Below, piece by piece: positions 9,872 to 55,451 of a DNA stretch of 64,000 nucleotides. The notes under the pieces were generated by a model, which did no database searches, had not been told where the DNA came from, and was given only the letters and a program-made list of their open reading frames with translations. The translations under genes and the position numbers were made by a program. The DNA comes from Natrinema longum (GTDB taxonomy: Archaea > Halobacteriota > Halobacteria > Halobacteriales > Natrialbaceae): contig NZ_CP071463.1 of the NCBI RefSeq assembly GCF_017352095.1, positions 3,286,001 to 3,350,000 of the forward strand. The letters run 5' to 3'. The first letter of the stretch is position 1, and the number at the start of each line of letters is the position of its first letter.

Positions 9872-10131
9872 GTCATCGTGTTTGCGGGCACCATGGTTAA
9901 AAGATCGCCCGAAAGTGAAAGTGAAATCGGTCGGGAGCGGATCGATATCGGTCGAACGGCGACAGAATTTCGAAAGAAACGTCGGTCGGTATCGTAGCCA
10001 CCGAAACGAGCAACACACGACTCGCAATGCGCTCGTGCGAGTAGGGGCGCAGTGATTTCCAGTAGCTACTGTAGGGACGGCTCGGTCGGCGGCAACGAGT
10101 TGCGTCCCGAATCGCGGCCGTGCCGTGGTTG
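9872..10131. other. intergenic DNA upstream of the DUF5790 gene
   Basis: Together with the repeat at 10132-10196, this makes a gap of about 330 bp. It holds the probable promoter of the minus-strand DUF5790-type gene (AT-rich TTTTAACC at about 9892-9901). No gene or further repeat is recognised. Confidence 0.4.
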
Positions 10132-10196
10132 CATACGGTCTACTGTCCGATTTGCGGGCGAACCCACGATCCGTCCGTGAGTCGCCGGCACTGACA
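10132..10196 (-). repeat. structured dispersed repeat, copy C
   Basis: Read on the minus strand, GTCAGTGCCGG (10195-10185) is followed by an imperfect hairpin, GGCGACTCACG against CGTGGGTTCGCC. Then come AATCGGACAG and ACCGTATG at the other end. The same order of conserved blocks occurs in copies at 39182-39262 and 55358-55451. It lies 12 bp beyond the stop of the nickel transporter gene, in the sense orientation, so it could form an RNA structure or terminator in that transcript. Confidence 0.55.
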
Positions 10197-10207
10197 GACG
10201 GCGGGTA

Positions 10208-11044
10208 TTAGAAGATGCCGAGAACGAATCCACCGCCCATGCCGACGAGGACTACGGCGGAGACGAGGGGCAGATAGGGGGTGTATTTTTCGACCCGTTC
10301 CTCGGAGTGGTGATAGCCCGCGATCAAGAGCATCGTGAGACTCACGATTCCGAGGACGACCGTGATCGCGTACGCACTCATCAACTCGAGACAGTGCGTC
10401 GAACCGGCACAGAGTGCGATGATCTCGAACTCCTCTTCGTGGGCGAATCCGAGGACGAACGCGACCCACGCGATATCGAGCAAGCCGCGGTCGGCGGCCG
10501 CCTCGAGGTCGTCCCTCGAGTGGGAGTGTGCGTGCGAGCGGGAATCGGTATCGACGAACGGGAGGTGGCGCGACAATCGAGCGAGGACGCCACCCTCCGA
10601 GCGGGACTCGTCGTGATCGTGTCCGTGATCGTGGTCGTGAACCCGGTCGTCGTGGGAATGCACTTCGTCCGCGCGAGGGTCCGTCTCGCCCGCGTGTGAG
10701 TGGCCGTGGCGGTATTCCCGAATCCCGAGGGCGATGAGGACGATTCCGGCGACGATACTGACGGGACCGCCGAGCCGAACCCCGCCGAGGACGGTGAGCG
10801 GCTCGTTGACCTGCGTCAGGTCGAGATAGGCCGTCGCGTAAAAGAACGCGCCGACCATCGCGATGCTGCTTATCAGGTGGCCGATCCCGATGAGCAGACT
10901 CGCCGCGAGCCCGTAGGCCCACTTGTTGGACCGATCGAGGGCGTACGCGGCGGCGATCGGCCACCCGTGGCCCGGTTCGATACCGTGTATGGCCCCGAGC
11001 GTGATCGCACCGATCAAAAGCCCGGATGCGTCCGTTCCTATCAT
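10208..11044 (-). CDS. RcnA/NicO-type nickel-cobalt transporter
   Basis: The 278-residue membrane protein starts MIGTDASGLLIGAITLGAIHGIEPGHGWPIA. The HGIEPGHGWP motif in the first helix is the metal-selectivity signature of the NicO/RcnA group. Six or seven hydrophobic segments flank a long His/Asp-rich cytoplasmic loop (about residues 115-185, for example DDRVHDHDHGHDHDE) likely to bind nickel or cobalt. FAHEEEFEIIALCAG follows. It is divergent from a nikR gene, so Ni is the probable regulated metal. Whether it imports or exports is not decided by sequence. Confidence 0.82.
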   Translation of the reverse strand: MIGTDASGLLIGAITLGAIHGIEPGHGWPIAAAYALDRSNKWAYGLAASLLIGIGHLISSIAMVGAFFYATAYLDLTQVNEPLTVLGGVRLGGPVSIVAGIVLIALGIREYRHGHSHAGETDPRADEVHSHDDRVHDHDHGHDHDESRSEGGVLARLSRHLPFVDTDSRSHAHSHSRDDLEAAADRGLLDIAWVAFVLGFAHEEEFEIIALCAGSTHCLELMSAYAITVVLGIVSLTMLLIAGYHHSEERVEKYTPYLPLVSAVVLVGMGGGFVLGIF

Positions 11045-38963: not shown

Positions 38964-39181
38964 CTCTGTCTCGAACTCTCGGGCGTCGACCTTGAAAGTT
39001 TCTCCGGCCGCGGATCAGCGGCGCTCGTCCCCGCTCGTGGACGGGCGTCACCACGTGAGGAACAGCGAAGTCCAGGTACCCGATCGGCACAGAACGCTGC
39101 CCGACAGTGCCGCCAGGGGAACGACCGCATCGGACAGGCGGTACTGTCCCGTCCCTGCCGACCGCCCGCGACCGGCGAGTG

Positions 39182-39262
39182 ATACGGTCTCCTGTCCGTC
39201 AGTGCCGGTGGGACCGGGACCACCTTGCGGCCCCACCGGTCAATCGGGACAGCAAACCGTAT
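39182..39262. repeat. structured dispersed repeat, copy A
   Basis: Nested inverted repeats are seen: outer ATACGGT (39182-39188) with ACCGTAT (39256-39262), middle CTGTCC (39192-39197) with GGACAG (39247-39252), inner CCGGTGGG (39205-39212) with CCCACCGG (39232-39239). GTCAGTG precedes and TCAATCG follows the inner stem. Copies at 10132-10196 and 55358-55451 share these flanking words. It lies just beyond the stop of the XdhC gene and within a 310-bp gene-free gap. Confidence 0.65.
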
Positions 39263-39272
39263 GAAATGCGGG

Positions 39273-40439
39273 CTACTGCGAGGGGGCACCCTCCGTCGAA
39301 TCGACAGTCACTCTGTCGTGAATGTGCCCCTCGCGGCGTTTCAGGTGTCGGGGCGTCCGATCGTTGGACACTGCCAGTATCTCCGCGACGATACTGTGTG
39401 CGATCTGGTAAGGGGAGCCGCCGCCGAGGTCGAGCCCGATCGGCGTGTACAGCGGCGACAACTCCCCTTCCTCGAACGACCGTCCCTCGTCCTCGAACGC
39501 CTCGAGCATCTCCTCGAACCGCTTGCGGGGCCCCATCAGACCGATGTAGGGAACCGACGACTCCAGTAACTGCTCGACCGTCAACCGATCGTCGACGAAG
39601 TTGTGGGTCATGACGACCGCGTAGGTGCGGTCGTCGAGGTCGAGTTCGTCGTCGACGGCTGCCGGCGAGGTCGTTATCGTTTCGTCGGCGTCCGGAAATC
39701 GGTCCGCGAGGTCGACGCCACCGCGGAACCCGACGACGGTCACGCGGAAGTCGTTTTTCGCGGCCAGTTCGGTGACCGGTCCCACGTCGTGGCCGGTTCC
39801 GAACACGACAAGCTCCGAGGGTGCTGCGAGCCCGTCGATGAACACCTCGAGTTCCCCGTCCGACTCGAGTTCGACGACGTCGGCTCGGCCGCGCTCGGTG
39901 AGATCCGCCGCGGGCTCCGACAGCGCGGCGGGCCAGTCCGTCGCCGGCTCGCCGTCCGGGGTCACGAGCCGCCCATCCCCGGGATGGTAGTACGCGCGGT
40001 CGCCACGGCCGAGGGAGCCGTCCGCTCCCTCGAGAACGGTGAGAACGGCGACGTTCCGTCCGTCGGCGAAGGCCTCGACGGCGGGACGATAGGTCTCGGT
40101 CAACGGCTCCAGCAGGACGTCGATGATCCCGTTGCAGCCGACGCCGAGCCCCCAGACGTCCTCGTCGTCCTCCATCAGGTCGTAGGTCACCAGCTCCGGA
40201 CGGCCGCGTTCGCGAACCGACTCGGCCGCCGCGAGCAGGTCGTCCTCGAGGCAGCCGGCCGTAATGCTGCCGACGCCCTCGCCGGCGTCGTCGAGGAGCA
40301 TTTTCGCGCCCGGCCGCCGGTAGGCGTTCCCCTCGACGTCGACGATCGTCGCTAAGACGTCCGTTCCCGCCGTGTCGAGTCGTTCGTGAATGCGCTGTAC
40401 CACCTCGGTCTCCGGTAGGCTCCAGTTGCTTCGTGTCAT
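39273..40439 (-). CDS. XdhC/CoxI-family protein
   Basis: This 388-residue protein has an N-terminal XdhC_CoxI domain with YRRPGAKMLLDDAGEGVGSI, TAGCLEDDLL and GVGCNGIIDVLLEPL. A C-terminal Rossmann domain follows with ELVVFGTGHDVGPVTELAAK, YAVVMTHNFVDD and YIGLMGPRKRFEEML. XdhC proteins bind and sulfurate molybdenum cofactor and insert it into molybdenum hydroxylases. It is the last gene of the CO dehydrogenase operon, 18 bp after the DUF364 gene. A second XdhC-type gene lies at 43881. Confidence 0.85.
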   Translation of the reverse strand: MTRSNWSLPETEVVQRIHERLDTAGTDVLATIVDVEGNAYRRPGAKMLLDDAGEGVGSITAGCLEDDLLAAAESVRERGRPELVTYDLMEDDEDVWGLGVGCNGIIDVLLEPLTETYRPAVEAFADGRNVAVLTVLEGADGSLGRGDRAYYHPGDGRLVTPDGEPATDWPAALSEPAADLTERGRADVVELESDGELEVFIDGLAAPSELVVFGTGHDVGPVTELAAKNDFRVTVVGFRGGVDLADRFPDADETITTSPAAVDDELDLDDRTYAVVMTHNFVDDRLTVEQLLESSVPYIGLMGPRKRFEEMLEAFEDEGRSFEEGELSPLYTPIGLDLGGGSPYQIAHSIVAEILAVSNDRTPRHLKRREGHIHDRVTVDSTEGAPSQ

Positions 40440-55357: not shown

Positions 55358-55451
55358 TCGTACGGACCGTTGTCAGTCAGTGCCGGCGACCCCACGGACA
55401 GGTCGTGGGGTCGCCGGTCACTCGGGACGGGGGACCGCATCAGACGTACGA
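55358..55451. repeat. structured dispersed repeat, copy B
   Basis: The inner hairpin has perfect 14-bp arms, CCGGCGACCCCACG (55383-55396) and CGTGGGGTCGCCGG (55404-55417), with a 7-nt loop. GTCAGTG precedes it and TCACTCGGGACGG follows. Outer TCGTACG (55358-55364) pairs with CGTACGA (55445-55451). The inner arms differ in sequence from copy A, yet both pair fully, which suggests selection for structure. The element lies between the divergent DCC and SDR genes. Confidence 0.65.

Follow-up and report, generated by a model that had tools for sequence, protein, structure and literature searches.

An abundant MITE-like element mostly inserted at TGA stop codons in Natrinema longum, with copies in other Natrialbaceae

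Three copies in the window

The window is a 64 kb stretch of the Natrinema longum genome (G000, one contig of 3.59 Mb, here C1; C1:3286001–3350000), and it carries three copies of a short palindromic element in differing gene contexts (Table 1). Copy A lies between the end of xdhC (stop codon TAG, nt 39273–39275) and the start of a DUF7409 gene, copy B abuts the TAA stop codon of a NicO-like nickel-transport gene, and copy C precedes an SDR gene, away from any called stop codon. An earlier sequence-only reading had placed three matching structured copies at about these spots and in these contexts, and had described three nested stems in copy A, which are borne out by its predicted fold (−48.6 kcal/mol, z = −4.4). 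Copy B is absent from the list returned by the genome scan and was found when its own locus was searched (E = 2.8e-7). Insertion at a stop codon went unremarked in that reading; within the window, copy B alone shows it.

Table 1. Element copies in the window with their flanking triplets (window coordinates), and internally deleted forms elsewhere in the genome (C1 coordinates)
Feature	Position	Strand	Remarks
Copy A, 79 bp	39183–39261	+	From sequence; covariance model 99.2 bits; fold z −4.4
Copy A, left target duplication TGA	39180–39182	+	Intergenic, not a gene stop
Copy A, right target duplication TGA	39262–39264	+	
Copy B, 74 bp, diverged	10134–10207	−	32.5 bits, model R1, own locus
TAA stop of NicO-like gene (10208–11017, −)	10208–10210	−	Adjoins copy B; presumed altered TGA copy
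Copy B, far-side triplet TGC	10131–10133	−	Presumed decayed TGA
Copy C, 79 bp	55361–55439	+	71.7 bits; stem subfamily CGACCCC/GGGGTCG
Copy C, left flanking triplet TCG	55358–55360	+	One change from TCA
Copy C, right flanking triplet TCA	55440–55442	+	
Deleted forms, 46–70 bp	C1:1258000, 1855491, 1961388, 2664440, 2817376		Own genome

A search of the window against Rfam 15 returned two tRNAs and nothing at the element copies, and seven element loci gave no match even at E 0.1, none reaching the gathering score. No description of the family was found in Rfam or in the open-licence literature searched. The window also contains a different short palindromic repeat (nt 10045–10080, minus strand; ends AGTAGCYACTGRAA), which recurs at C1:735724–735800, where a copy of about 77 bp directly adjoins an end of the present element. 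This repeat looks like another haloarchaeal MITE family.

Copy number and structure

The block GTCAGTGCCGG is present in 59 copies genome-wide, compared with 6 for the reversed control, and about 52 of these occurrences can be aligned end to end. A covariance model seeded with 35 of the aligned copies detected at least 127 distinct genomic places, and the family includes all three window copies. The terminal inverted repeat (TIR) pattern ACGGTNTNCTGT gave 114 matches, the control one. The observation of three matching copies is thus confirmed as real and far above chance: further copies, on whose existence the sequence-only reading depended, are abundant, and the sharing of blocks goes beyond GC composition.

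The element is an imperfect palindrome of about 79 bp (median 79 bp) with no open reading frame or transposase gene. The genome consensus, including the flanking triplets, reads TSA - KACGGTCTCCTGTCC GTCAGTG CCGGTGGGACC..GGTCCCACCGG GACATC GGGACAG CAA ACCGTM - TSA. Its arms are imperfect inverted repeats with the TIR (K)ACGGWYTRCTGT, each arm carries the boxes KACGG, TGT and CCGG, and KACGGWYTRCTGT is present at both ends, as in a MITE; the conserved boxes match what would be expected at the ends of a transposon. The whole unit can be folded into one hairpin. Its apical stem varies by subfamily (TGGGACC, CGACCCC, CGCACCC, TGCAACC) with complementarity kept, and both sides had changed in 12 of 24 pairs, a level reached in none of 500 shuffles. 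Across families, up to four Watson-Crick types are seen at one pair and 91% of cells pair, in an alignment that had been fitted to the model structure. Internally deleted forms of 46–70 bp keep both ends and are mostly flanked by TSA (Table 1).

Target duplication and mobility

The triplets on the two sides of the element agree. In the N. longum genome the pairs are TCA/TCA (36 copies), TGA/TGA (33) and TGA/TCA (2), with no TCA/TGA; in other Natrialbaceae the flanks match perfectly in 63 of 75 copies (39 + 24), and in three genomes from two other families, where the stems differ, they match in 29 of 30. The flanking repeat is a direct one and differs among copies, which identifies it as a target duplication and not part of the palindrome. 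Its fixed length of 3 bp (TGA or TCA) is again a feature of MITEs. One exact empty site was found: relative G010 has GAACGGAG-TCA-GGCGG where N. longum has GAACGGAG-TTA-element-TCA-GGCGG (copy at C1:2604649). The target duplications and the empty site show that the element is mobile.

HUH elements typically cleave at fixed sites, and the flanking triplet here is either TGA or TCA, yet the same on both sides. Single-strand transposition of the hairpin by an HUH enzyme, of the IS200/IS605 type and PATE-like, is for this reason highly improbable, even though the whole element can fold as a hairpin; PATEs are common in Haloquadratum, but HUH elements make no target duplication (PMC3119063). An IS200/IS605-derived PATE, which would have neither TIR nor duplication, is ruled out by the presence of both.

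Placement at stop codons

Genes were called with a simple, home-made codon-usage gene caller, and 98 of the 127 listed copies lie exactly at the stop codon of a called gene (48 on the left side of the element, 49 on the right and one on both). As a background, 213 of the 1764 TGA/TCA triplets that lie outside coding sequence in these loci (12%) are stops. None of the listed copies has its interior mostly within a called coding sequence, and the other 29, copies A and C among them, lie between genes but away from called stops. Most copies lie about 1 base past the stop codon. Genes bearing the element end in TGA (93) far more often than in TAA (4), compared with 245 TGA and 205 TAA or TAG among genes without it (p = 2e-17). 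Public plasmid records bear out this placement: in the six that annotate a gene under the match, that gene overlaps it only by the duplicated triplet, on which the gene ends, and the other plasmid copies are intergenic.

The triplet on the gene side is TGA in 93 of 97 cases, and that on the far side in only 57–58 of 97 (p = 6e-10). An intact gene-side triplet and a decayed far-side one are as expected if the gene-side copy alone is needed. About 39 far-side triplets have decayed; in 19 of these the result is CGA, the same T-to-C change beside the element end.

The sequence-only reading had suggested counting the copies and their orientation relative to genes, and had left open a mobile or genome-wide element, a protein-binding site or an RNA motif. 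The orientation is the same as that of the gene in 39 cases and opposite in 58, showing no clear strand preference. A non-coding RNA family, or a protein-binding regulatory motif spread over operons, would be in keeping with the invariant GTCAGTGCCGG block and the covarying stem; given the strand ratio, the lack of an Rfam match, the target duplication and the absence of a common gene context, it is most unlikely. On the strand ratio, Rfam result and duplication, a riboswitch or small RNA was rejected. The mobile, genome-wide element is the part of the proposal that stands. An RNA motif fits less well, although transcription would yield a strong hairpin immediately past the stop codon.

That hairpin, its usual position about 1 base past the stop and the maintenance of the stem by compensatory change would all suit a signal selected by the host at the 3' end, either a bidirectional terminator or an mRNA-stabilising hairpin kept after stops for its usefulness, whatever its origin. 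Against this, the insertion sites are not common to the relatives checked. At the four loci compared, the orthologues of up to seven relatives share the position of the stop codon and are then followed by unrelated sequence lacking the element, which holds wherever the alignment reaches the stop. The number of elements varies from 0 (G003, G006 and G010) to over 100 within one genus, in which about ten of some 25 genomes have 98 or more, no T-run follows the hairpin sequence, and a terminator needs no matching 3-bp duplications on both sides. We consider such a signal quite improbable.

The bias towards stop codons has an explanation, in part, in the target itself. Compared with ordinary TGA stops, the targets are enriched in C at −4, G at −3, C at −1, G at +1, C at +3 and G at +4, positions that form the weak palindrome CGaC-TSA-GnCG, half of which is supplied by gene ends with an aspartate codon before the stop (GAC TGA). 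Insertions inside genes would be lost, but the purging of insertions elsewhere is rejected as the sole cause of the placement: in the first 100 bp after stops, 98 copies sit on a stop and 16 do not, compared with 338 TGA stops and 492 other TGA/TCA sites available (odds ratio 8.9). A weight matrix of the target, fitted on the very sites it scores, predicts 70% of copies at stops in this 3' zone, and 86% are observed (p = 9e-5). The weak palindromic preference accounts for part of the stop-codon bias; together, preference and purging explain most of it, but perhaps not all.

Distribution and search for a partner

The family is found in Natrinema, Natrialba, Natronorubrum, Natronococcus, Haloterrigena, Halostagnicola, Natribaculum, Salinadaptatus and Natronolimnohabitans, and its distribution within Natrialbaceae is patchy (63 of 91 genomes). 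Plasmids also carry copies, and no match was found among viral contigs and phage records. Other families contain relatives with different stems and the same ends and duplications. In three genomes of other halobacterial families (G170, G204, G144), copies are near-identical within a genome while the stems differ between genomes, suggesting, from the sequences, separate recent expansions in these lineages.

Nowhere among the listed TIR sites of the N. longum genome, the fetched loci of relatives or G144 did such ends enclose a transposase, and TIR pairs 150–4000 bp apart in all fetched loci revealed no autonomous element. Solo TIR sites in N. longum (listed up to about 3.03 Mb) and G144 are short copies, deleted 46–70-bp forms, solo ends or chance matches. 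The IS1031 group of the IS5 family uses TNA targets, and a 3-bp, TNA-centred duplication would presumably suit an IS5-type DDE enzyme. The present element resembles this group in the length of the duplication and its TNA-like centre but has no transposase, and none of the 30 DDE_Tnp_1 loci examined with their ends, in six genomes, carries its TIR; the ends of the IS4/IS5-type loci examined are different.

For REPs, mobilisation is by HUH enzymes, and no target duplication is known. A haloarchaeal counterpart of the REP/RAYT system, in which palindromes with lineage-matched stems are spread by a single-copy, host-encoded (domesticated) transposase lacking TIRs of its own, would account for the lack of an autonomous copy in the places searched, for the near-identical copies with their own stem and TIR variant in each lineage, and for a presence that is widespread but patchy. 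It is nevertheless unlikely, as no candidate gene was identified and the element makes a variable target duplication.

Comparison with known systems

The nearest precedents are the MITEs and SMRs of haloarchaea (PMC3119063) and those REPs that provide stop codons from their ends (PMC3733652). The MITEs of Haloquadratum walsbyi have TIRs in common with known transposons (PMC3119063). Like them, the present element is short and non-coding, has TIRs, a target duplication and many copies, and would be mobilised in trans; unlike them, it had no partner IS in the places searched, is concentrated in TGA stops, and is a near-complete palindrome with a covarying apical stem. It shares with the H. walsbyi SMRs its short length, prominent inverted ends unrelated to known transposons and a strong target preference. 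SMRs make no target duplication and their targets are other mobile elements (PMC3119063), whereas the present element makes a 3-bp duplication and sits mostly at stops; the duplication excludes it from the SMRs.

The REP superfamilies GTAG and CGTC (PMC3733652), which are associated with RAYTs (PMC2817692), include GTAG REPs whose termini often supply a TAG stop; haloarchaea are not discussed in that work (PMC3733652). Both REP/BIME sequences and the present element are palindromic, number more than 100 copies and lie at gene ends, but the present element is two to four times longer, has a 3-bp duplication and is haloarchaeal. Membership of REP/BIME was rejected, the consensus having no GTAG or CGTC tag next to a 20–40 bp palindrome.

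Taken with these comparisons, the element is very probably a non-autonomous DNA transposon of the MITE type, about 79 bp long and mostly inserted at TGA stops. The structural features of a MITE are present (short length, TIR and target duplication); an autonomous transposon with the same TIR and duplication length, which a MITE would also have, did not turn up in the places searched. This abundant MITE-like family is new, and its landing site is unusual.

Proposed mechanism and significance

A transposase supplied in trans would bind the conserved KACGG/TGT/CCGG boxes, make a 3-bp staggered cut around T-S-A in the weakly palindromic target, and insert the element. At a stop codon, gap repair would rebuild TGA on both sides, leaving the protein unchanged so that the insertion survives selection; the far-side TGA may then drift. 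The host mRNA is predicted to carry a strong hairpin about 1 base after its stop codon, replacing the old 3' UTR.

With the stop codon as its usual landing site, the element illustrates cleanly what a 'safe' genomic target can be: because the stop is restored by the 3-bp duplication, more than 100 copies can accumulate without damage to proteins. The MITE-like family would explain many gene-end hairpins in Natrialbaceae which might otherwise pass for terminators or RNAs, and it offers a natural system for studying how archaeal termination and mRNA decay respond to a hairpin just after UGA. The enzyme, if found, would be a transposase with a preference for gene ends. A broader and rather doubtful possibility is a system common to the whole haloarchaeal class, in which lineage-specific hairpins are set by a fixed, host-encoded transposase precisely into TGA stops, the stop being rebuilt each time; if true, mRNA 3' ends would be rewritten genome-wide while proteins remain untouched.
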